Assembly: GCA_014360465.1 (NCBI GenBank)
Contig: JACIXQ010000010.1
Location: 1 to 45,854 of the forward strand
Origin: a bacterium
GTDB taxonomy: Bacteria > Armatimonadota > JACIXR01
Reading direction: 5' to 3'
DNA: 45,854 nucleotides
Below the pieces are notes generated by a model that did not search any database, had not been told where the DNA came from, and saw only the letters and a list, made by a program, of their open reading frames with translations. Shown one piece after another: positions 2,687 through 38,427 of the stretch (positions within the stretch are counted from its first letter, which is position 1; each line of letters begins with the position of its first letter). Position numbers and translations under genes: made by a program.

Positions 2687-3886
2687 TTGAGAACCTTCTT
2701 TTTTATTAGCTTTCTACTCTTTCCCATCTTATTTGCCTTCCCGGAAGGGCAGATGAATTTTCTTAAACGTGTGGGGAGCGACATATATTTGAATGGCAGG
2801 CCTTTTCGCTGCGTGGCAGTGAACAAATTCAATCTTTTCCTCAGCTTTCTCAAAGGTGGAGAGGATAAAGAGCAGGCTATCAAAGCAATTGAGGAGGCAA
2901 GCAAGCAGGGATTCAAAGTCATCCGTTTTTCGGGCGTGGGCTACTACCCTGTTGATATGCGTCATTGGGCAAGGGAGGAAATCTATTGGAAGGCTTTCGA
3001 CGAACTTGTTGATGTAGCAAAGAAAAATGATGTGTATTTAATTCCTACTCTTTATTGGAATATTTTCCTCTTTCCCGATATGGCTGGCGAATGTGTGCAG
3101 GATATCCTCCACAATCCTGATTCTCGTTCCCGCCAATATCTTTGGTTATACACATATCAAATTGTATCGCGCTACAAGGAGGAACCTACCATTCTCTTTT
3201 GGGAGCTCACTAATGAGATGAACCTCTTAGCTGACCTCGCCTTTATGCACCCTTATGGGTTCAGCAACGGGAACTGGATAGAACTTGGTACTTCCTATAT
3301 GCGCCTTCGGAGGGACCATTTCACCTCGGATGAGATGATTCCTTTCATCAAGGAATGGGCGAGTTTTATAAAGAGCATAGACAAAAACCACCTCATCGGA
3401 AGCGGTTTTTCCATACCTCGGGCAGCTGCCCAGCATCTCCGCCGTGCAAAAGGTAAAGGAGATTGGACGGAGGATACACTTGAGGAATTCAAGATATATA
3501 TTCGCGATGTTCATCCCGACCCTGTAGATTTGATAAGCATTCATTTCTATCCTCGGGACGGCAATCTTCGTTTCGGTAATAAAGACGAAAATTCCGCTGT
3601 TGTCTTAGAGAAGATAAAGAAGGTGGCTGACGAAATCGGAAAACCAATCTACATAGGTGAAACGGGTGATGATTACTCAAATAACCCCGATTCTCTCTTC
3701 CTTAGAAATGTTTTCAGTGAGGTGGTAAAACTCGATATACCGATAACCTTGATTTGGAATTGGATGAGTCCGAATGACGCCTACGATGTCAATCCAGAGC
3801 GCACACCCCGAGTTGTTGAGATGATGAAACAAGCTAATGAGGCGTTCAGCAAGAAGCTCCTCCAGGGGGGAAAGGAATATCACTAA
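2687..3886 (+). CDS. Secreted GH5-like glycoside hydrolase (mannanase/cellulase clan)
   Basis: 399 aa with an N-terminal signal peptide (hydrophobic residues about 3-18). The body looks like a clan GH-A TIM barrel of the GH5 type: an N-terminal 'NGRPFRCVAVNKF' strand, WELTNEMN with the acid/base at Glu177, SIHFYPRD around His286/Tyr288, and the nucleophile in IGETGDD at Glu325. Beta-mannanases and related endo-glycanases have this layout, but the substrate cannot be read from sequence. The start is TTG at 2687, 7 bases after AAGGAGG. It follows the clostripain-like gene by 12 bp. It is one of several secreted carbohydrate-active enzymes in the window. Confidence 0.85.
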   Translation: MRTFFFISFLLFPILFAFPEGQMNFLKRVGSDIYLNGRPFRCVAVNKFNLFLSFLKGGEDKEQAIKAIEEASKQGFKVIRFSGVGYYPVDMRHWAREEIYWKAFDELVDVAKKNDVYLIPTLYWNIFLFPDMAGECVQDILHNPDSRSRQYLWLYTYQIVSRYKEEPTILFWELTNEMNLLADLAFMHPYGFSNGNWIELGTSYMRLRRDHFTSDEMIPFIKEWASFIKSIDKNHLIGSGFSIPRAAAQHLRRAKGKGDWTEDTLEEFKIYIRDVHPDPVDLISIHFYPRDGNLRFGNKDENSAVVLEKIKKVADEIGKPIYIGETGDDYSNNPDSLFLRNVFSEVVKLDIPITLIWNWMSPNDAYDVNPERTPRVVEMMKQANEAFSKKLLQGGKEYH

Positions 3887-25544: not shown

Positions 25545-28500
25545 ATGACGAAAGCAAGGTGTGAAGATGTGATGATTTTATTGTTCTTGTTTATCCTTCT
25601 ATTGTGTTCCTTCACGCAAGCGAAGCCGATTTATCATCTTGTGGTTAATTGCGGCGGAGAGGCTGTTCAGAAAGCATTGAGCGATAAGGAGTTTTCCAAG
25701 GGGAGCTGGGGATTTATAAAGGGAGGTTCTTTCAGCATTAGTGCAGAAGAGAAAATCATCCCCGATTTTGGCTATCCGTCTGCTATGAAATCGGCGAGAT
25801 GCGATGCTAAGAAGCCTGGTGTTCCTTTCAGATATTTATTCACACTACCAAACGGCGATTATACTGTAAAGCTCTATTTCGCAGAGCTTAGCTATGATAA
25901 AGCCGGGAAAAGAAGATTTGATGTTAGAATTCAGGGAAAGATAGTTCTTGAAAACTACGATATTTTTCTCCGAAGTAGTGGAAAGAATAAAGGTAAAGTG
26001 GAAATTTTCCCTGGTGTAAAAGTTGAAGATGGTATTTTGCAAATAGATTTCATCTCCAAGGTAGACAGAGCGATGGTTAACATCATAGAGATTCAGAGCG
26101 AGGAACAGGTCCCTGAACCTGCTGAAGTCGCAGGATATACGGAACTTTGTTTCTACGACGATTTCAACTCCCCCGAAACAATAGACCTAAAAGCGACGGG
26201 TAAGCCAGGATACAAATGGTATGTTGACCTACCTTGGGGTTTCCCTCCAACTTCTCCCGACGATATAGAGGTTAAGGATTCTGTTCTAAAAATATCTGCT
26301 GGTCCGATGAACTGGGGGATTTCCACTTATAGTGTTAAGGGGAAAACAGGAAGAGCTTTTCGTTTTGGCTATTTTGAAGCAAAGATTCGTTTTGACCCTT
26401 CTTTGGGAGAGAAAAGCTCTGGCTGGCCTTCTTTTTGGAGCATTGCCCTTGAGCATGCCCTTGGAGACCCTAATCACTGGAACGAGTTGGATTTCTTTGA
26501 AGCTTATACAGGTGGGCATCGTAAATACGATGGAGCATTTTATGGTACTCTTCACGATTGGGCAGAGGATTCAAAAGTCCACTTTCAGAATGTCAATAAC
26601 CGGATTGAAGTGGCGGGTATAGATTGGAACCAGTGGCATATAATCGGATGCCTCTGGCAACCTGGCTCAGTCACTTGGTATCTGGATGGTAATGCGCTAC
26701 TCACCCAGCGTTATTCTCCTACTTCATTCCCTGAGCCACTGATTATTACTGGAACGAGTTCGGAGGTGCCTTTGGGAACCTTCAGTATCCTTGACAAACA
26801 AAAGAATATAGTTATCCTTGGTTCAGGAAAAAACTGGCCTCTTTTTGTGGACTGGGTCAGAATCTATCAAACAGGAAAGGAGGAAAGCACAATGGAACCC
26901 AATTCCAAAGAAATTGAAATAAGATCACCTAATGGAGGGATAGTTTTCAAGCTGAGGATAGGTGATGAGGGAAGCCTTTTTTACAGCGTGGAGAAGGATG
27001 GGAGGCAAATATTTGAGGATTCACCGCTCGGTATTTTTACCAGCGTTGCCGATTTCACGAAGGACCTCAAAATCCTTTCCCTTTCTCGCCGTGTGATAGA
27101 CGAGAAATACTCATTAATCGGTAGAAAAAAGGAGATTAATGAGAATTTTTGCAACGAGCTCCTCCTCAAATTGGGTAAGGAGCTTCATTTAATGTATCTG
27201 ATAATACGCGTCTATGATGATGGAGTAGCCTATCGTTACTTTATACCCGGTGAAGGACCGATCACAATCAGCTTTGAGACCAGTGCCTTCCGCATACCGA
27301 AATCGGCAATTGGTTGGGCGATGGAATTCGTCCCCAATTATGAGGGATTCTATATCAAGCGCAATTATGATGAACTTTTGAAGGGCTATGATTTCGGGAT
27401 GCCTGTTCTATTGAACATAGGCGAGGACTGGGTTTTAATCTCCGAGGCATCAGTTTACGGTGATTATTGTGGTTGCCATATCAAAGGGGAGCCAGAAACA
27501 GGACTTCTAAGGGTTGTTTTCGCTCCCGACCAGAAGAATGCTGTGATGAGCAAGCGTCCCTTTTATTCTCCCTGGAGGGTGGCGATAATCGGCGAGCTTA
27601 AGGACATCGTTGAGTCCACGATAATTGAAAACCTTAGTCCAGATTGTGAGTTAGCTGATACTTCATGGATTAAGCCGGGTCGTTCTGCATGGTCCTGGTG
27701 GTCAGGGGACAGCACTGAGGATTATGCTACCCAAGTCAAGTATGTTGATTTCGCCGAGAGGATGGGCTGGGAATACTATCTCTGCGATGCTGGCTGGAAA
27801 CCTGAATGGCTTCCCCAGCTTGTTGAATATGCGAAAAAGAAGAACATCGGTATCTTCGTCTGGTATCACTATAAGGAGGTTGAAACGGATGAGGAAATAA
27901 ATAAGAAGTTTTCCTGGCTCTCCGATATAGGTGTGAAAGGGGTTAAAGTTGATTTCTTTGACAGTGATTGCCAGGAAAGGATTCAAATGTACGACAAAGT
28001 CGCTCTAACGGCGCTAAGATATCGTTTGTTGGTTGTCTATCATGGAGCTACCAAGCCAGCTGGAGAAAGGAGAAGGTGGCCTCATATCCTAACAAGGGAG
28101 GGTGTTTTGGGAGCAGAATATTATAAATGGTCAGAAGGACCAACTGCAGAGCATAACTGCACGCTTCCCTTCACCCGCAATGCTCTCGGTCCGATGGATT
28201 ATACGCCCGTGACCTTTTCGGAATATAGAGATCAAACCACGCATGCTCACCAGCTTGCCCTTGCGGTTATCTTTGAATCAAATATCCAGCACCTTGCAGA
28301 TAAACCCGAATCATATGAGAGCATCGGTCCCGCTTTGGAGTTCCTCAAGGAATGCCCTGCTACTTGGGATGACACTAAGCTCATAGAGGGTTATCCCGGT
28401 AGGTTCGTGACGATTGCCCGTAGATATGGAGATAAATGGTTTATAGGGGCGATTTGCGGAGGTGGAATATCAAGGGAATCGATTATTCCTCTGGATTTTC

Positions 28501-28658
28501 TTAAAGAGGGCGTGAATTACATCGCAAGGATATATAAGGACTCTGAAAATCCAAAGCAAATAGCCTGTGAAAGCAAACAGGTCAAAAGAGGGGATGTTTT
28601 GAAGATTCCCATAGCGAAAAATGGAGGATGTGCAATTGAGATAAAGCCAATGAACTAA
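25545..28658 (+). CDS. Secreted malectin-GH16-GH97 multidomain glycosidase
   Basis: 1037 aa. A signal peptide (about 1-26) is followed by a malectin-like carbohydrate-binding domain (about 28-180, beginning YHLVVNCGG), a GH16-type laminarinase/agarase-like jelly roll (about 190-440) with the catalytic ELDFFE (Glu314, Asp316, Glu319), and a full GH97 domain (about 448-1037) with SWWSGD, YYLCDAGW, the VKVDFFDSD strand (Asp803) and the C-terminal sandwich. GH97 enzymes are alpha-glucosidases or alpha-galactosidases; the aspartate at 803 favours the retaining galactosidase type, but I cannot prove it. GH16 (endo-beta) plus GH97 (exo-alpha) in one chain is unusual and suggests one complex polysaccharide such as a red-algal or galactose-containing glycan. 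The ATG at 25545 has no ribosome binding site but a TATAGT lies 5 bases upstream; ATG 25572 is the alternative. Confidence 0.85.
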   Translation: MTKARCEDVMILLFLFILLLCSFTQAKPIYHLVVNCGGEAVQKALSDKEFSKGSWGFIKGGSFSISAEEKIIPDFGYPSAMKSARCDAKKPGVPFRYLFTLPNGDYTVKLYFAELSYDKAGKRRFDVRIQGKIVLENYDIFLRSSGKNKGKVEIFPGVKVEDGILQIDFISKVDRAMVNIIEIQSEEQVPEPAEVAGYTELCFYDDFNSPETIDLKATGKPGYKWYVDLPWGFPPTSPDDIEVKDSVLKISAGPMNWGISTYSVKGKTGRAFRFGYFEAKIRFDPSLGEKSSGWPSFWSIALEHALGDPNHWNELDFFEAYTGGHRKYDGAFYGTLHDWAEDSKVHFQNVNNRIEVAGIDWNQWHIIGCLWQPGSVTWYLDGNALLTQRYSPTSFPEPLIITGTSSEVPLGTFSILDKQKNIVILGSGKNWPLFVDWVRIYQTGKEESTMEPNSKEIEIRSPNGGIVFKLRIGDEGSLFYSVEKDGRQIFEDSPLGIFTSVADFTKDLKILSLSRRVIDEKYSLIGRKKEINENFCNELLLKLGKELHLMYLIIRVYDDGVAYRYFIPGEGPITISFETSAFRIPKSAIGWAMEFVPNYEGFYIKRNYDELLKGYDFGMPVLLNIGEDWVLISEASVYGDYCGCHIKGEPETGLLRVVFAPDQKNAVMSKRPFYSPWRVAIIGELKDIVESTIIENLSPDCELADTSWIKPGRSAWSWWSGDSTEDYATQVKYVDFAERMGWEYYLCDAGWKPEWLPQLVEYAKKKNIGIFVWYHYKEVETDEEINKKFSWLSDIGVKGVKVDFFDSDCQERIQMYDKVALTALRYRLLVVYHGATKPAGERRRWPHILTREGVLGAEYYKWSEGPTAEHNCTLPFTRNALGPMDYTPVTFSEYRDQTTHAHQLALAVIFESNIQHLADKPESYESIGPALEFLKECPATWDDTKLIEGYPGRFVTIARRYGDKWFIGAICGGGISRESIIPLDFLKEGVNYIARIYKDSENPKQIACESKQVKRGDVLKIPIAKNGGCAIEIKPMN

Positions 28659-28671
28659 AAAGGAGTACTAT

Positions 28672-30033
28672 TTGGAGATTAATAGGTTTTGCCTATTAGC
28701 GCCCCAAGCTGATGAGCAATCTACAAATACTTGTAACCCTCTTCCCAAGCCGAGCAAGGCTCAGCTTGCCTTTCAGGATTTGGAGCTCGGACTTTTCATT
28801 CATTACGGTATGACTACTTACACCCGCTACTCTGAGCCTGGGCGTCATAGCCCCGAGAAATTTAGACCCACAGCCCTGGACTGCGATAATTGGATGGAAG
28901 TGGCACGAGCAATGGGCGCGAAATTCGCTGTTCTGACGGTCAGACATCAGGAGGGCTTTTGCTTGTGGCCAACCAAAAGCACGGAATATTCCGTGAAAAA
29001 TTCCCCCTACAAGGGTGATGTAGTGCGCCAGTTCGTGGAGAGTTGCCACAGATATGGGATAAAGCCCTGCTTCTATCACTGTTCCCTGATGGATGCCCAT
29101 CACCTTTTTCAACCGGGTGACCCTTATGAATGGCACGAGGAATGGTTTGAAACGACGAACAGGAGGCTTTCCGAACCCGGCGCATTTGAGCGATTTCTCG
29201 CCATTCAGAAACAGCAAATAAGGGAACTGCTTACTGAATACGGGGAGATAACTTATCTCTGGCTGGACCATATCACAGAAACACAGGGAATACTCATCCC
29301 CGATTTGGTCGAGAGATTTTGGTGCGAGATAGTGAGTGAGGCTCGTAGGCTCCAGCCCAAATGCCTTCTTTTGAAATGTGATGTATTTCTTACAAGGGAT
29401 AGGGATGCAAAAACGGGTGTTCATGGAGGAAGGGCGGCATACCCGCTATGGTACAGGTGCCGGAGGGAGGATACAAACGAGGGATTGCAGGACCCCATTC
29501 CCGACCCGATAAATGGAGACCAGTTCATCGTCTGGGAGTCAAATACCATCTTCAGCGGTGATTGGTTCTGGAATGGCGATTATGTAAAACCTGTTGAGGA
29601 AATGGTGGAGCATTACTACTTCACGATAGGAAGGGGCTCGACCTTTCTTCCGAACTTTGCTCCCGCTCCCAGTGGCAAGATGACAGATAAGGTTCTGGAA
29701 CATGCGAAAGCGTTTGGAGATAGGATAAGGGCTATCTATGCCAATCCAATAGCTGTTGTGGAAGAAGCAGGGGAGGAAATAGAGGTGGCGATTAATAATG
29801 AGCCTTTCACTCATATAGAAATAATGGAGGACTTAAGGGAGGGGCAGAAGGTAGCTGGTTATACGATAGAGATTTTGAAGAACGGTATTTGGAGCAGGTT
29901 GGCGGGAGGTGAGAGCATAGGGCACAAGCGTCTTCATCGCTTTGAGCCTGTCGTAGCGGAGGCTGTTAGATTTAAGAGAGAGAAGACTTTCTGGGAAAAT
30001 CCCCGTATCCGCAGGTTCGCAATTTATAAATGA
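28672..30033 (+). CDS. GH29-like alpha-L-fucosidase
   Basis: 453 aa, no signal peptide, so probably cytoplasmic. GH29 features: GLFIHYGMTTYT near the start (family G-L-F-x-H-W/Y-G), AMGAKFAVLTVRHQEGFCLWPTKST (His92 region), YGIKPCFYHCSLMD, and YLWLDHI with the likely nucleophile Asp199 (WFD in classic members). A beta-sandwich C-terminal domain follows (about 370-453). It would remove alpha-L-fucose, or another 6-deoxy sugar, from oligosaccharides. The TTG start has AAGGAG 9 bases upstream. It is 13 bp after the GH16/GH97 gene and 13 bp before the next, a three-gene carbohydrate operon. Confidence 0.83.
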   Translation: MEINRFCLLAPQADEQSTNTCNPLPKPSKAQLAFQDLELGLFIHYGMTTYTRYSEPGRHSPEKFRPTALDCDNWMEVARAMGAKFAVLTVRHQEGFCLWPTKSTEYSVKNSPYKGDVVRQFVESCHRYGIKPCFYHCSLMDAHHLFQPGDPYEWHEEWFETTNRRLSEPGAFERFLAIQKQQIRELLTEYGEITYLWLDHITETQGILIPDLVERFWCEIVSEARRLQPKCLLLKCDVFLTRDRDAKTGVHGGRAAYPLWYRCRREDTNEGLQDPIPDPINGDQFIVWESNTIFSGDWFWNGDYVKPVEEMVEHYYFTIGRGSTFLPNFAPAPSGKMTDKVLEHAKAFGDRIRAIYANPIAVVEEAGEEIEVAINNEPFTHIEIMEDLREGQKVAGYTIEILKNGIWSRLAGGESIGHKRLHRFEPVVAEAVRFKREKTFWENPRIRRFAIYK

Positions 30034-30046
30034 GGAGGGTGTTAGT

Positions 30047-31195
30047 ATGAGGGAGGATACAAGGCTAATCCTTGAGGAATCATACGAGAGATTGAAAGGG
30101 TATCTTCTGGAATGTGCCCAAAGGGCTAAGGCAGAATTGCCAGGTGGCATAATTACTATTGCTTCAAGTGAGGGACACTACTATGGTCTCTGGCCAGACG
30201 ATTTCCTCTTTCCTCATATAGTTTGTCCTGAGTTGGCAAACAAGGAAAAATTAGCGAGGATTCTGGAATTCCTAACCGATAGTGTCATTGATTTAGAAAG
30301 GGTTCCCGATAGGGTTGAGCCAAGTGGGCTTCCCATAATGGTGCCTGGTTGGTATGATGGTCCGATAGGGGAAAAGATGCCTGCCCATTTGCCATCTGCC
30401 TGGGTGAGGCTTTTGAGCTATTTTGATCAATGGGGAGTTCATATACCAAGAAGGGAAGGATGGGCGAGGGTGATAAGGAGAAGTTATGAACAGTTATCAT
30501 TCAGCTGTGGGCTTGTCTACATTGACCCCCAAAGACCATATGTAGGCTTTGGCTATCAAGATAACATCGCTATAACTGGTTTCTCCTTAATGAGTAGTTT
30601 GGTGACTTATAGGGGATTGCTAAGGGCTGTGGAGCTTTTCAAAGGATATCTTGAAAGAGAGACATTGAACTATTGGCAAATGTTGGCGGAGGGAATCAAG
30701 GAGAATCTCTGGCGATTATACGATGAGGAAGTAGGTGGATTCGTTGCGGGAAGCTTTGATTGCCGCCAATTTGATGTCTGGGGAAATGGGCTTGCTTATG
30801 GACTTGTGGAGGATAAGGGAATGAGAAGGCGAATTGAGGATTTCTATCTGCGGAATAAAGAAAGGATAATAAAATTCGGCTTCACTCGGCAAATAGCGGA
30901 GGAGAAAGGTTGGCAGAGGCTTCTTGTTTCTGCTGAGGTGGGAAAGTATATGAATGGTGGATATTGGCCCACGGGGACAGGTTATATCCTGCCCGTTATA
31001 TTTGCCGCTGATGAGGAGCTTGGGAAGGAGATAGTTAAGGAGCTTCTTGAAAACCTCCCTCGCTTCCATTTCGCTGAATGGGTCGATGCGGAAGGAGATG
31101 AATCAAACGCTAAGTATTTCCTTATGGGCATAGCGATTCCGATGCTCGCCATAAAATCCCTGCTTGAAGCCAAGCCCCTGATAGATTTTTTCTAA
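30047..31195 (+). CDS. Six-hairpin (alpha/alpha)6-barrel glycosidase-like protein
   Basis: 382 aa, no signal peptide. The helix-loop pattern is that of (alpha/alpha)6 barrel glycosidases: HYYGLWPDDFLFPH early, then GYQDNIAITGFSLMSSLVTYRG, GGFVAGSFDCRQFDVWGNGLA, MNGGYWPTGTGYILPV and WVDAEGDESNAKYF. Acidic residues at the centre of such loops (WPDDF, GYQDN, DVWGN, EWVDAEGD) are candidate catalytic residues. Relatives include amylo-1,6-glucosidase and GH116-type enzymes; I cannot name the family. ATG follows GGAGGG. It ends the GH97-GH29 operon, and its stop codon lies inside the left copy of the 31-bp direct repeat. Confidence 0.7.
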   Translation: MREDTRLILEESYERLKGYLLECAQRAKAELPGGIITIASSEGHYYGLWPDDFLFPHIVCPELANKEKLARILEFLTDSVIDLERVPDRVEPSGLPIMVPGWYDGPIGEKMPAHLPSAWVRLLSYFDQWGVHIPRREGWARVIRRSYEQLSFSCGLVYIDPQRPYVGFGYQDNIAITGFSLMSSLVTYRGLLRAVELFKGYLERETLNYWQMLAEGIKENLWRLYDEEVGGFVAGSFDCRQFDVWGNGLAYGLVEDKGMRRRIEDFYLRNKERIIKFGFTRQIAEEKGWQRLLVSAEVGKYMNGGYWPTGTGYILPVIFAADEELGKEIVKELLENLPRFHFAEWVDAEGDESNAKYFLMGIAIPMLAIKSLLEAKPLIDFF

Positions 31196-31216
31196 TTTTT
31201 TCTTGATTTTTCCCTG
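31186..31216. repeat. Left direct repeat bounding the 3.6 kb island
   Basis: 31 bp of T-rich sequence ending CTTGATTTTTCCCTG, overlapping the stop codon of the six-hairpin gene. Identical to 34774-34805 except for one extra T there. Confidence 0.85.
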
Positions 31217-31313
31217 CAGAGCCCGCTTGATAGGGATTTATTTTAGCAATCCTTATTTTAAGTATCCCCCATCTGTAGTAATATTTTATATGCTCATTAG
31301 TTTATCCCGATTT

Positions 31314-32621
31314 TTAAAATTCGATGACAAAAGCGGTATCTCTTTCAACGCAATTAAAACAATCAATACAACAATTTTTATTTGAAAAAATTACTTTCTT
31401 TTGTTCGAAAGTGCAGAATATCTCTTTTGAAGCCCGCACAATCTGATTTCGCACTTTTAGTTTTGGCAATTTAGCGCGTTTGAAAGGATATACTAATGAT
31501 ATCTCTGGGGATAACCAGTCATAGAGTTCGTTTCTACTCAACTCTAATTGCAAAAGCCCAAAAGGACAACAAAAGGGGATGGGTGGAATGTGGCCTCTCG
31601 ATAGCTCCCTTATTATGTAATAATGCCAATCTTCCCACAGACGGAGCCAGGGATGAGGAAAGCTCAGCCAGAAGTCCCGAAAATAGCAACTTTTAGTTAA
31701 GGTAAAGATAGCATTAAAATAATCTTCTGGGTCGTAGTATATTTCGCTACCATGATGGGGCACTTTAAGGATGCGATTCCTGATTAGCTGGGGATATTTG
31801 GCAAGGACAATAGACCAGTTTGTTAAATCACCTGGAAAGAGAAACTGTCTGGTTACTTCCTTATACTGATATGTTATGCTTACCACTATGCTAATATCGT
31901 TAAACAAACTTCGGGCTTTGTCATAGAATTTATCAATTTTTTTCCAGTAACCTGGGTCATAATCATCGTTTTCAAATGTTCTTCTTTCTTTTTTAATTTC
32001 CTCAATTTGTGGTATCTCTACCTCAAATTTTTCGATTACCTGGGAAAAAATTTCCTCTTCGCTTTCAATTTGCCTTTTTTCCACCGATACCTTTTCAAGA
32101 AGCCTTTTAAGATAATTAATATAATTTTTAATCGTCTGCCCCTTCGGAGAATTCAGTATTCTTTTTATGTTTTCTGGTTTTCTTAGATAATGATGAAGAT
32201 AGGGGGGTGGAGATAACACTTTTAGATGAAACGGACCTATTTGGATTTCATAGCCGTCATAAACAGCTACTTTTCTTTTTACTGCTCGGCCAGCGGTAAC
32301 TAATGAAGTCATGTAGAGACAAAATAACATATAGGGAGAACCGGTTTCTTTGAATGATTCAATAAGTGGTTTAATATCAGTAACCCATAGTTCTTTTACT
32401 TCAATTTCATCAGCGATTCTCGATAGACCCCCAATATGATCCTCATCCAGGTGGGATGCGATAAGGAGGTCTATGGATTTTATCCCTAGCTTCTGGATGT
32501 AATCAATACAAGCGTTTTTCTTGTAACCGCCATCTATGAGGATGTTTATTTCCTTATCCTTCTCGCAGAACCTCAAGAGCGTTGCGTCACCTGCCGCAGG
32601 GATCATATGTAGTTGAAGCAC
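31314..32621 (-). CDS. Standalone ComEC-like metallo-beta-lactamase-fold protein
   Basis: 435 aa, soluble. The metallo-beta-lactamase fold of the ComEC/Rec2 hydrolase type: ILIDGGY, SHLDEDHIGGL (His57, Asp59, Asp61, His62), LFPGDL and VPHHGSE. A charged insertion of about 100 residues separates the two halves (about 155-255). The last ~35 residues are cysteine-rich (C, then CC..C..C in NKNCCIDCFNC), maybe a zinc site. It lacks the ComEC membrane channel. Standalone proteins of this kind occur in bacterial conflict systems. The GTG start has AAGGAGG 8 bases upstream. It lies about 150 bp downstream of the PIN gene on the same strand within the island. Function unknown; a metal-dependent nuclease or phosphodiesterase is likely. 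Confidence 0.8.
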   Translation of the reverse strand: MLQLHMIPAAGDATLLRFCEKDKEINILIDGGYKKNACIDYIQKLGIKSIDLLIASHLDEDHIGGLSRIADEIEVKELWVTDIKPLIESFKETGSPYMLFCLYMTSLVTAGRAVKRKVAVYDGYEIQIGPFHLKVLSPPPYLHHYLRKPENIKRILNSPKGQTIKNYINYLKRLLEKVSVEKRQIESEEEIFSQVIEKFEVEIPQIEEIKKERRTFENDDYDPGYWKKIDKFYDKARSLFNDISIVVSITYQYKEVTRQFLFPGDLTNWSIVLAKYPQLIRNRILKVPHHGSEIYYDPEDYFNAIFTLTKSCYFRDFWLSFPHPWLRLWEDWHYYIIRELSRGHIPPIPFCCPFGLLQLELSRNELYDWLSPEISLVYPFKRAKLPKLKVRNQIVRASKEIFCTFEQKKVIFSNKNCCIDCFNCVERDTAFVIEF

Positions 32622-32773
32622 GTCCTCAACCTCCTTAGAATTTTTTATGCAATAGACTCATCGCTAAACAAGTTTACCATAGGGTTTCCTTTTGGCAAGC
32701 CAATTTCGTTATAATTATTAACTCTTTTTTTCCCGTTATTTTGTTGTAGGAATCAAAAATCGTTATTCTTTCC

Positions 32774-33250
32774 TTACTCGCCGATTACCTCAACACTGAT
32801 GCTCTCCCTTATTTCTTCTTTTCTTTCCAGTATTTCTTTATCCATTGTAAGAAAGTATCCGACAAGTCCCTTTTCTGCTAATATTTTTGCGTAGGCTATA
32901 TGAAGCATATCTCCTGATTTCAATTTAACTTTCGGGGATATTTGGGTTGCTTCGAAAAATATGTGGAATAGATATAAACCTTTTAATTTTCCTAATTTGC
33001 GCTCATCTGGTATAACTTCGATATCAAGTTTCCGGAGTAGATAGGGCGCCAAAGCACTCCTTTTAATTCCGGGAGGCAATATAAAACAACCTATCCTATA
33101 CGCAATGCTATAAAGTTCAACAAGTGTGAAAGGTGATGTGCAGAATTTTCCCAGATGTTTATTCCTCTCAATGAGAGCGCGAGCTTTTTCATGGTTAGGG
33201 TCTCTTTCTATCCCATATGAAAGGATTATGTTAGTATCCAGATAAACCAT
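32774..33250 (-). CDS. PIN-domain ribonuclease (VapC-like)
   Basis: 158 aa. PIN-fold nuclease with its acidic residues in place: MVYLDTN (Asp5), LVELY (Glu45), KSGDMLHIAYAK (Asp114) and LTMDKE (Asp137). VapC-type PIN toxins cut tRNA or rRNA with magnesium or manganese. The length is slightly more than a classic VapC (about 130-140), and the middle (about 55-105) is longer than usual, resembling archaeal/thermophile PIN proteins. No small VapB antitoxin precedes it; instead it is 17 bp downstream of two unrecognised genes. It could be a toxin of an unusual module or an RNA-processing enzyme. Confidence 0.85.
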   Translation of the reverse strand: MVYLDTNIILSYGIERDPNHEKARALIERNKHLGKFCTSPFTLVELYSIAYRIGCFILPPGIKRSALAPYLLRKLDIEVIPDERKLGKLKGLYLFHIFFEATQISPKVKLKSGDMLHIAYAKILAEKGLVGYFLTMDKEILERKEEIRESISVEVIGE

Positions 33251-33267
33251 AACCCTTTAAAAATGGT

Positions 33268-33804
33268 TTATCTTTCCCGTTGCTCCTGAACGATTCTAAC
33301 CGCGTCAAATCCGGGAAGGGCTACTGGACCGACACCAGATTCTAACATTATTTCTACCATATAATCTATTTGTTTATCTTCGGGTATGTCCTCTTCTCCT
33401 CGCCATTCCACCGTCACAAAAACATTAAGATTACTACGTTTTAATTGTTTAACAAGTTTTTTCCAGAGTTCTAAGGCTTCTTTAGCGGATAGCTCCGTCG
33501 TAACTTTAACAATTAGACCGAAGTGTTTATCAAAATAAGATTCTACATAATGGGTTTTCCCTTTGGCTAGAGTGTTAGCCAAGCTAAAAACTTCTCGCTC
33601 TAGCTCTATCTGTTTTTCAATTTCCGACATTTCGGAGGGTTTAGTAATGGCCGAGTTAGAAGCAATAGGCCATTCATAGATATAAGAAAGTGAAGACGGC
33701 CTTGCCTCTTTTTGAGAAGAAGACTGTTGTGAAGATACCCATGGGAAAGGTGTTCCCACAGTACTTTTAACTTCAGAGGGGTAACTTAAAACCATATTAT
33801 TCAC
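33268..33804 (-). CDS. Unrecognised protein in PIN operon (178 aa)
   Basis: 178 aa, not recognised. The first ~60 residues are Ser/Pro-rich and probably disordered. The rest (about 60-178) looks like a compact alpha/beta domain: a charged helix EIEKQIELEREVFSLANTLAK, a strand LIVKVTTE, a helix KEALELWKKLVKQLKRS, a strand NVFVTVEW, then a helix and a C-terminal VRIVQEQRER. No catalytic signature is evident. It overlaps the start of the upstream 214-aa gene's end by 4 bp (ATGA), so the two are translationally coupled. By position it could be a partner or inhibitor of the PIN protein. Confidence 0.8.
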   Translation of the reverse strand: MNNMVLSYPSEVKSTVGTPFPWVSSQQSSSQKEARPSSLSYIYEWPIASNSAITKPSEMSEIEKQIELEREVFSLANTLAKGKTHYVESYFDKHFGLIVKVTTELSAKEALELWKKLVKQLKRSNLNVFVTVEWRGEEDIPEDKQIDYMVEIMLESGVGPVALPGFDAVRIVQEQRER

Positions 33805-34445
33805 ACCTTGTCAATTAGTTTTTTTAGTATATCTTCCAAGTGTTCTAAGAAATTCAAAAGCTTAGATTTCTCATCGCGATAAGTTATTGTAAGCCGATGA
33901 GGGTTCTTCTTCTCCTCAGGCTTATATGCACCCCAGAGGGGAAAAATCTCCATATGAAACCACTTATTCGAGCTTGGATCCCCTTTGTCCATAATAAAGG
34001 ATGTTTTCGCTAATCTTAAATTAAAACCTAATATATCCTCAAAGAGATATACATTATCTTCAAACTTCGGCTTAAGAAATTCTTCTGCTATGACAATTAC
34101 CTCATAAGGTATGAGTGCCTTTTGCTTTAGATCTATGCCTATTTCTTTAAGAATATCCTCAACCTCATTTACTGCCTTGATAACCTCTTCAGGGATTGGA
34201 CTTTCAATACCTAAAGCTCTTCTTACCAGGTTATAATCTATTTTTATATTTCCCTTTCCTGCAATAACTCCTGCAGGAGCTCCAGCAATAACACTTGGTG
34301 GTTCGATAAAACCTATATCTACACCTTCAAGGGTTGGTCTAACACGGGGGGTAATGTAGCCCTTCTCTCCAAGCTTCCTGATAAACAAGTGGAGAGCAGG
34401 GTCAAGCATAAAAACAGTAGCGATACGAACTTGTAGGATTTCCAT
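33801..34445 (-). CDS. Unrecognised protein, first gene of PIN operon (214 aa)
   Basis: 214 aa, not recognised. Predicted soluble alpha/beta protein with no signal peptide. The N-terminal half contains a Gly/Ala-rich segment SVIAGAPAGVIAGKGNIKIDY, the C-terminal half is strand-rich and ends in a charged helix (LNFLEHLEDILKKLIDKV). No catalytic motif is apparent. It follows a clear promoter (34508-34536) and a good ribosome binding site (GTGAGG, 9 bases before the ATG), and its last bases overlap the next gene. The set 214-aa, 178-aa, PIN behaves as one transcription unit and is the least explained part of the window. Confidence 0.8.
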   Translation of the reverse strand: MEILQVRIATVFMLDPALHLFIRKLGEKGYITPRVRPTLEGVDIGFIEPPSVIAGAPAGVIAGKGNIKIDYNLVRRALGIESPIPEEVIKAVNEVEDILKEIGIDLKQKALIPYEVIVIAEEFLKPKFEDNVYLFEDILGFNLRLAKTSFIMDKGDPSSNKWFHMEIFPLWGAYKPEEKKNPHRLTITYRDEKSKLLNFLEHLEDILKKLIDKV

Positions 34446-34773
34446 AAACTATACCTCACTTTTTTATTATGAAGTATTTATTGATAGAAAAAAGCATTTC
34501 ATTTTTAAATTTAGCTTATTTGTATTCTTCTGTCAACAAATTATTACTGTATACAAACAACACAATATTAAAAATTAATATTATTCCAAGAAATACTCTT
34601 GCTAATTCAATCCAACACCAAGACATAAGTAGATTCTACAAGCTTCTACGCTAAATGATACTATAAAAGAAAGGGCGTTTTATATCTTTAGACTACCTAT
34701 TCCATTTCTTTGCCATAATCCTCTCTCAGCCATCTCGCGGTCAAAGACTGAAAATTCTCCATTACAGGTACTT
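34446..34773. other. AT-rich gap at right end of island
   Basis: No gene seen. It holds the minus-strand promoter of the PIN operon and otherwise AT-rich sequence up to the right direct repeat. A 61-codon frame at 34469-34654 overlaps the promoter and looks spurious. Confidence 0.5.
34508..34536 (-). promoter_or_regulatory. Promoter of PIN operon
   Basis: On the minus strand: TTGACA (34536-34531), 17-bp spacer, TAAATT (34513-34508). The start codon of the first gene is 63 bp downstream. The island therefore brings its own promoter. Confidence 0.6.
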
Positions 34774-34805
34774 TTTTTTCTAATTTTTTCTTGATTTTTT
34801 CCCTG
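34774..34805. repeat. Right direct repeat bounding the island
   Basis: 32 bp, the same as 31186-31216 with one extra T. It supplies the TTGATT -35 box of the comM promoter. Confidence 0.85.
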
Positions 34806-34818
34806 TCCGATTTATAAT
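34791..34818 (+). promoter_or_regulatory. comM/yifB promoter
   Basis: TTGATT (34791-34796), 16-bp spacer, TATAAT (34813-34818). The ATG is at 34857 after GGGAGAG. Confidence 0.65.
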
Positions 34819-34856
34819 AAAGCAACTTTGATAACTCTTCTCAGGGAGAGTGAAAG

Positions 34857-36383: not shown

Positions 36384-36623
36384 GGTTCAAGAGTTAAGGT
36401 AAAAATAATCTTATACTCTAAAAGGGCTTCAGCTTCAAGCCAGAAATTCCAAAAAAGCACACTATATGCGATTGGGTGCGAATTGAAATGCACAATTGTG
36501 AGTAAAAAGCACCAGAGTGGAAGTATAATTAAGATGATAAAGGAGCTCAAACTATATGGGGAGAGTAGAGGGCTTTAAACGGATTCAACAAATTTAAAAA
36601 ATAAGTTAAAATTAAGCGAAAGT
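36384..36623. other. Non-coding gap
   Basis: No convincing gene. A 13-codon open frame (36556-36597) follows AAAGGAG and may be a relic or chance. A TAAAAT at 36607-36612 could be the -10 of the next gene. Confidence 0.4.
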
Positions 36624-38147
36624 ATGGTTATATGCGTAACTCATAGAAAAATTGACTTGGAAGCGGCGAGCTGTCTTTGGTTCCTCCAGAAAAGAGGACT
36701 AATAGATGATTATGTCTTTGGGGAGGATAGCTGGAGAACGCTTGAAGGAAAGACAAGTATGCTTATCTTCGTAGATTGTCATCCAGAAGAGGATATATCC
36801 GACCTGGATGTTGAGGTTTACGACCATCACTTTATTGAGAAAATCTTTCAGGGCAGGGAAATGATAGAACTCACTTCTTTTGACTTGCTTATCTCATCTA
36901 AAGGAATTGGTGATTTGGATGAAGAGAAGCTAACGAATTGGGCAAGGGTTGTTTTTCTATCTGATTATCGGGTAGATACAGGAGATATGGATTTGAAAAG
37001 GGCGCTGAGCAGAATAACCCAATATTCAGAGATGACTGATGGGGAAGTTTACGAGGAATGGTTCATGCCCCTTGTGGATAGTTTCTTCCAAAACGAAAAA
37101 AATGTAGAAAGGGGACAAAAAATACTGAGTGATGCCATTTCCAGCTTTCTTGAAAGATATCCCGAAACTCCAGCGAGAAAAAATTTGGAAGCCTGGCTGG
37201 AAAAATTAAGGGCTCCTGAAAAGCTGGATGGCAAAAGAAATATACTACATTTTCTCAGCTATATGGAAGAAGCAGAAGCCCGGAAATGGCTCTCGCCTGT
37301 TTTTGATTCCCTCCATAAGGAACAATCGGTTTTCAGGGAAGTCCTTGGTAATCTCGAGGAAAGATTTGAAAAGGAGGTTAAAGTTGATTTCGGCGGGCGG
37401 TTTTTAATCCTTTCGTATATAACATCTAAGAGAGCTTTTCAAAACGCTTTAAGATACCTTTTATCAAATAGAGCCCCTTTCCTACCATATATTATCAAAG
37501 AATATTTCGCCCAATTGCCTAAACCATATATCGTCTTGCAAGTAAATCCGGAGAATCTTAACTTTCAAATTTTAACTGGTGGGGTTTGGGAAAAACAGGA
37601 TGGTAAATCTATTGCTTATGTTAAAAGTCAGCTATCGGAGATAGCGAGGGAGTTAGTGAAGGCACTACGAGGAGAAATCCTTGTAAAAAGGGGGATAAAA
37701 ATGGACGATTGGCGAGAGGAAGTAATCGTAAATATAGGGAAAGAGATAGAGTTGTTGGATATATTTGCAGATATGATAGAAAATCAGAAGCCCAAAATTG
37801 CAGACGAGCTGAAGGAAGTAGCGATGAAACTTCGGGCAAGTTTGAAAAATATTGGGATTAAATGGATGCTTTCGTTGCCCTGCGATGTTGTGGGGACGAG
37901 ACCACTATTCTACAATAAGAAAGAATTTCCCCAGATTCTGTGGGGAAGTGCAACCCACGAGGCACCGCCGGCGGATATATTTGGCAAGGATGCCGAGGAA
38001 ATCAGGAGAAATCTTGTAGAAAATATCAAACTTGTCATTGATAAGGAAGATTTTCCTCCCTATTGCGACCCTGGGAATTGCTTAGGTTGCCCAATGGAGT
38101 TTTGGTATCTGGATAAGTGCGAGAATAAGAAAAGGGGAAATGGCTGA
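36624..38147 (+). CDS. DHH-superfamily-like protein with C-terminal cysteine cluster
   Basis: 507 aa, no signal peptide. The N-terminus shows a DHH phosphoesterase-like pattern: THRKIDLEAAS (His7, Asp11), IFVDCHP (Asp51) and VYDHH (67-69), the three metal-binding motifs of RecJ/exopolyphosphatase relatives, but closely packed. The middle (about 130-400) is helical and unrecognised. The C-terminus has CDPGNCLGCP then DKC (Cys481, 486, 489, 499), a possible zinc or iron-sulfur site. I do not know this family. The start at ATG 36624 lacks a strong ribosome binding site. It sits alone after comM with its own gap on each side. A nucleic-acid or nucleotide phosphodiesterase is a guess from the motifs. 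Confidence 0.7.
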   Translation: MVICVTHRKIDLEAASCLWFLQKRGLIDDYVFGEDSWRTLEGKTSMLIFVDCHPEEDISDLDVEVYDHHFIEKIFQGREMIELTSFDLLISSKGIGDLDEEKLTNWARVVFLSDYRVDTGDMDLKRALSRITQYSEMTDGEVYEEWFMPLVDSFFQNEKNVERGQKILSDAISSFLERYPETPARKNLEAWLEKLRAPEKLDGKRNILHFLSYMEEAEARKWLSPVFDSLHKEQSVFREVLGNLEERFEKEVKVDFGGRFLILSYITSKRAFQNALRYLLSNRAPFLPYIIKEYFAQLPKPYIVLQVNPENLNFQILTGGVWEKQDGKSIAYVKSQLSEIARELVKALRGEILVKRGIKMDDWREEVIVNIGKEIELLDIFADMIENQKPKIADELKEVAMKLRASLKNIGIKWMLSLPCDVVGTRPLFYNKKEFPQILWGSATHEAPPADIFGKDAEEIRRNLVENIKLVIDKEDFPPYCDPGNCLGCPMEFWYLDKCENKKRGNG

Positions 38148-38427
38148 AATCTCTCAATAATTCTCTAGGCAATCACTCATAAATTTAAGCAAGGCTTTAA
38201 CTAATCTTGGAGATTTACAGTTAAATAATCAGCTCTTTTTCAAATCATTTTCACTTTCACAATCGTTTTTCTTTTTAAGGGCAAGCATCTAAAAATGCTT
38301 TCTCTTTGATTTTTAAGGGTTATATCCACATAATTTACTTCATCTTTTTTATTCTAAAAAGTATTGACCTTTTTAATTCTATAGATTAAAAATAACGAAA
38401 CTATTTTTTGAAAGGAGGATTTTCCAA
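38148..38427. other. Non-coding gap upstream of dehydrogenase pair
   Basis: No gene seen. It shares a short CAATCGTTTTT element with 14180 and holds a probable promoter at 38364-38392. The sequence is AT-rich and T-run-rich like the other relic gaps, but no transposase peptide could be followed. Confidence 0.45.
38364..38392 (+). promoter_or_regulatory. Probable promoter of dehydrogenase pair
   Basis: TTGACC (38364-38369), 17-bp spacer, TAAAAA (38387-38392). The -10 is weak. AAAGGAGG follows, about 10 bases before the ATG at 38428. Confidence 0.5.

Follow-up and report, generated by a model that had tools for sequence, protein, structure and literature searches.

A small block of DNA lying between a glycosidase-like gene and comM in the genome of this armatimonadotal bacterium is well supported as an insertion that left both neighbours undamaged. 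This conclusion rests on the lack of the block in two genomes of the same genus, a unique repeat, exact borders, a foreign composition, and the absence of three of its four genes from 291 genomes of the phylum. It agrees with a first-pass annotation of the sequence, which had proposed an integration or recombination event. The block amounts to a small genomic islet that carries candidate defence genes, and is notable for its exact ends, its lack of a recombinase and its two orphan proteins. The features of the islet are given below in coordinates of the window, by which we mean the whole stretch of 45,854 nucleotides that was analysed.

31186–31216, plus strand: left direct-repeat copy, 31 nt, holding the last codons of the upstream gene and its TAA stop (31193–31195)
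31217–34773, no strand: inserted block between the repeat copies, 36.7% GC, absent in both same-genus genomes
31314–32621, minus strand: MBL-fold protein, 435 aa, ComEC/LmuA-like, predicted nuclease, with a long insertion at about residues 139–240
32774–33250, minus strand: PIN-domain protein, 158 aa, predicted RNase (VapC-like); PF01850, 50.6 bits, E=3.8e-13
33268–33804, minus strand: g3, 178 aa, orphan, with a disordered-looking N-terminus and a core partly modelled as helix-strand-strand-helix-strand
33801–34445, minus strand: g4, 214 aa, orphan, first gene of the putative operon, overlapping g3
34508–34536, minus strand: promoter-like site for g4-g3-PIN (TTGACA, 17 bp, TAAATT; consensus match only)
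34774–34805, plus strand: right direct-repeat copy, 32 nt, including TTGATT, a possible -35 box of comM

The duplication of 31/32 bp at the ends of the block is real, unique and sharp-edged. The two copies differ by one T, the right copy having an extra T within a T-run, and they align locally with a score of 28, a value that did not exceed 14 when both ends were dinucleotide-shuffled 2,000 times. Near-identical direct repeats bounding the block, one of them overlapping the stop of the upstream gene, had been described in the first-pass annotation, and both observations hold. The exact core of the repeat is 26 bp (shuffling the region 300 times yielded no more than 16 bp), and outside the repeat the identity of the flanks falls at once to 0–25% on both sides. 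In 736 kb of genome sampled, this core is the longest non-CRISPR direct repeat with a spacing of 300–20,000 bp. The annotation had also suggested looking for the repeat elsewhere. The whole genome (2.69 Mb in 161 contigs) contains the core, with up to 2 mismatches allowed, at the two ends of the block and nowhere else, which means that it is not a common promoter motif. As a separate observation, a 30-bp CRISPR repeat occurs in two identical copies, 870 bp apart, on contig C32 of the same genome (locus L202, positions 2887–3785); the intervening DNA is not of array type, which may reflect an insertion in the array, the loss of part of it or an assembly join.

The composition of the block is equally distinctive. 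It had been described as visibly AT-rich, and its GC content is exceeded in every one of 2,188 windows (3.5 kb each) from a 736-kb sample of the genome. The islet genes have 37.3–39.5% GC compared to 45.1 ± 3.0% for 158 other ORFs, and at third codon positions the corresponding values are 31–36% and 45.7 ± 5.4%. The four ORFs between the repeat copies are all on the minus strand, and ORF analysis and family searches bear out the original description of an MBL-fold protein, a PIN protein and two unrecognised proteins.

Two genomes of the same genus, referred to as G001 and G002, were available for comparison, their aligned DNA being about 70–79% identical. In G001, a GH97-like gene is followed by comM 132 bp further on, and a 453-aa gene, the gene starting at 30047 and the islet are all missing. 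In G002, a homologue of the 30047 gene is separated from comM by an 892-bp interval in which no ORF reaches 100 aa, and a search of this interval for remnants of the islet genes found no similarity. The repeat is absent from both genomes, the sole trace being one match with 3 mismatches elsewhere in G002. The first-pass annotation had suggested comparing related genomes for an empty site with a single repeat copy. Both genomes lack the block, but neither G001 nor G002 shows a single-copy site, because they are distant at this level of DNA identity and the repeat is missing from them entirely. A gain in this genome best accounts for the block. In the 291 genomes of the phylum, PIN, g3 and g4 have no relative (the best match to g4 reaches only E=0.004 over 48 residues), and the MBL protein finds partial matches only, almost all to its N-terminal domain.

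When the flanks are joined in silico via one repeat copy, the intact end of the upstream gene is followed by the region upstream of comM, such that the event harmed neither neighbour. The upstream gene (30047–31195) is glycosidase-like, and its original name, six-hairpin glycosidase, is backed by neither Pfam nor NCBIfam. The right copy had further been credited with the -35 box of a complete comM promoter. A candidate promoter is indeed found by consensus match (TTGATT in the right copy, a 16-bp spacer and TATAAT), but only TATAA and the bases ahead of the comM ATG are kept in both relatives, whereas the TTGATT -35 box is not. The surroundings of comM vary in other ways. Ahead of it, the 453-aa gene, the 30047 gene and the islet differ among the three genomes of the genus (28659–34856 in the window). 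Behind it (36384–38403), a 507-aa gene without a family is found here (36624–38147), a 315-aa gene in G001 and a reverse gyrase gene in G002, and comM may thus lie in a spot of high gene turnover. The reverse gyrase, directly behind comM in G002 (contig C11, L014:11771–15382; TIGR01054, 1154 bits), suggests that the genus is heat-loving. Further upstream in the window (25545–28658), a 1037-aa protein has a carbohydrate-binding/glucanase-like front half seemingly fused to a retaining alpha-galactosidase-like half.

As for the mechanism, site-specific integration by an enzyme acting in trans or since lost fits best, and another mechanism duplicating 31 bp is also possible. On this reading, a block of approximately 3.56 kb was inserted between the glycosidase-like gene and comM and 31 bp were duplicated in the process; the left copy keeps the stop codon of the upstream gene and the right copy the upstream region of comM. 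The enzyme, absent from the block, would have been supplied from elsewhere or lost. The four proteins of the block match no recombinase or transposase family, in line with the first report of no recombinase inside. A genome-wide search aimed at tyrosine recombinases alone found only two, both Xer-like, and these are probably XerC and XerD, since each has a counterpart in both relatives. Two candidate structures were rejected. A transposon with terminal inverted repeats does not fit, the best inverted end match being 9, compared to a mean of 8 and a maximum of 12 in shuffles, and there being no transposase among the proteins. Xer/dif (pdif) sites are 28 bp with two 11-bp partly palindromic arms; the repeat matches at most 3 of 11 arm bases and has no palindromic arms.

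One possible, though on balance doubtful, alternative is that the block is a worn remnant or satellite of an integrase-bearing mobile element, the copies being attL and attR and the integrase having been deleted or provided by a helper or by resident Xer, in which case the cargo need not be defence. The repeat restores the 3´ end of a gene in the manner of an attachment site, the block is unrelated to its host, and with two tyrosine recombinases only, the genome has no resident dedicated integrase. However, family searches found no phage or plasmid gene among the proteins of the block, no tRNA or known RNA family was found near the site, the repeat is not dif-like, and it had no match in viral contigs. 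A comparison of the islet DNA with plasmids gave no match, and neither did a comparison with the CRISPR spacers of the genus (n=72), for which the best identity was 62% compared to 64% in a reversed-spacer control.

Far less probable is an ancient presence of the genes followed by loss in both relatives, the repeat having arisen later or by chance: the interval from the GH97-like gene to comM is variable within the genus and loss is conceivable, but the repeat is far from what chance would produce and sits precisely at the borders, the 892-bp interval in G002 bears no trace of the genes, and the composition is foreign. An assembly error joining the block to the chromosome via the shared 31 bp is similarly remote. 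In its favour are the draft state of the genome (161 contigs), the foreign composition and the coincidence of the junctions with a repeat. Against it, the block could be placed between the two copies only if it came from a circle carrying these 31 bp, itself a mobile element able to integrate here, and at usual assembly k-mer lengths a stretch of 31 bp is rather short to cause a false join.

Turning from the insertion to its cargo, the MBL protein matches Pfam PF00753 (Lactamase_B; 32.5 bits) and the PADLOC profiles LmuA (67 bits), RTasMBL and Avs1a, its profile scores being far under the curated NCBIfam cut-offs. Alignment with six proteins shows that the ComEC-type metal residues H57, D59, D61, H62, D265, H289 and H290 are all kept. 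The distance from HxDxDH to HHGS is 233 residues, compared to 110–135 in short ComEC-like relatives and 180–229 in a long group, with positions taken from the sequence only. Relatives with a long insertion adjoin caspases (loci L048 and L120), an arrangement known as Canu (PMC12799240), where the MBL proteins are pro-nucleases that are kept off by their insertions and opened by a protease (PMC12799240). The best full-length relative, from Rhizobium giardinii, has 28% identity, has a C-terminal Cys-rich stretch in common with the islet protein and is found near a druD gene (482 bits). Together, the profile matches, the metal residues, the insertion of the kind seen beside caspases and the relative near druD support an antiphage-type nuclease as the predicted identity of the MBL protein. 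No recognisable protease (trypsin-like or caspase) was found by family matching among PIN, g3 and g4, which counts against a gated nuclease, since those characterised depend on one; as orphans, g3 and g4 might conceivably include a protease of an unrecognised kind. A search for PIN, g3 and g4 beside relatives of the MBL protein gave nothing convincing. The neighbourhoods of these relatives are of interest in themselves. In R. giardinii (L053:1563–8193), a 784-aa MBL gene is divergent from genes for a 970-aa familyless protein and a druD homologue in a Druantia-like gene set, and a similar layout is found on a Sinorhizobium plasmid (L047). At four other loci (L049, L050, L084 and L019), long-insert MBL genes adjoin, by eye, a gene for a small putative membrane protein rather than a protease.

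The remaining three genes are operon-like, with the MBL gene beside them: g4 overlaps g3, the end of g3 is 17 bp from PIN, and the MBL gene, 150 bp from PIN, may have its own promoter. Four acidic residues (D5, E45, D114 and D137) are retained in the PIN protein, which is probably an RNase; its assignment to the VapC toxin family derives from a weak NCBIfam match. No known family, antitoxin families included, was matched by g3 or g4, and no relatives of either were found in viral contigs, plasmids or phages. For g4, a pattern search of 84,980 species genomes, which detects close relatives only, likewise found none, and its identification as a TIGR04255 protein was rejected (probability of 0.5% in a profile comparison with members). 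Structure prediction without an alignment was poor for both proteins, and a fold search with the low-confidence model of g3 gave no match at E ≤ 0.001.

The first-pass annotation took the block as a candidate for an undescribed defence or conflict module. This is plausible in view of the MBL evidence, but PIN suggests a toxin and g3 and g4 are neutral. A defence or toxin-antitoxin role for the cargo is plausible, with only the MBL protein pointing to defence, and a defence role of the block is a reasonable hypothesis. In the model that we favour, g4, g3 and PIN would form one operon, with g3 and/or g4 keeping the PIN RNase in check or directing it, and the adjoining antiphage ComEC/LmuA-type MBL nuclease would be blocked by its long insertion until infection triggers it, the module conferring defence or addiction. 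We consider the chances about even that the block was inserted with a 31-bp duplication and that its cargo is such a small conflict module of a PIN RNase under g3/g4 and a gated MBL nuclease. A search for this set of four in other genomes found none, which counts against the putative joint function. The same finding, together with the 150-bp gap ahead of the MBL gene and the weak match of PIN to the VapC toxin family, is consistent with the tentative reading that the cargo is two unrelated things, namely a PIN toxin that persists by addiction together with its antitoxin (g3 or g4), and an MBL hydrolase that serves some unrelated purpose and is not a defence nuclease. Against this, the MBL protein has the long insertion of defence-type MBLs and its best profile matches are to these, and its closest full-length relative is near druD. 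A more far-reaching reading, in which the block is a tiny mobile cassette that has no recombinase, inserts with a 31-bp duplication and brings a new antiphage system of an MBL DNA nuclease triggered without a partner protease, a PIN RNase and two new regulators, is improbable.

If real, the islet would be a minimal case, with four genes and exact ends, of candidate defence genes entering a chromosome without a recombinase of their own, and a clean site for seeking excision. An antiphage-type MBL protein without a protease would test whether these nucleases can be switched on in any way other than the proteolytic activation known from Hachiman, AVAST and Canu.

Several known systems resemble the islet in part. 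Xer-dependent pdif modules and IMEX have small cargo without a recombinase, bounding sites of approximately 30 bp and often toxin-antitoxin genes. The block is similarly small, recombinase-free and bounded by sites of this length, but its repeat lacks the 11-bp palindromic arms of pdif modules and is in direct orientation. Integrase-bearing islands and proviruses with attL/attR (e.g. PMC4158269) have end repeats of tens of bp, keep the end of the upstream gene and carry mostly unknown cargo, as the block does; in contrast to these, it has no integrase or tRNA target and is only 3.6 kb. The PIN gene is reminiscent of VapBC toxin-antitoxin systems, in that a small PIN protein with four acidic residues is encoded directly behind another small gene. 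Here, however, the gene ahead (g3) encodes 178 aa and belongs to no antitoxin family, and there is an additional orphan, g4, in the putative operon. Finally, the islet differs from the gated MBL pro-nucleases (HamM, Avs1a, the MBLs of Lamassu and DRT, and CanC; PMC12799240) in having no trypsin-like protease or caspase, and its MBL protein has an extra C-terminal Cys-rich region and at most 27% identity to those compared. What it has in common with them (PMC12799240) is a ComEC-type domain with all metal residues, a long insertion before HHGS, and the matches to the LmuA, RTasMBL and Avs1a profiles.
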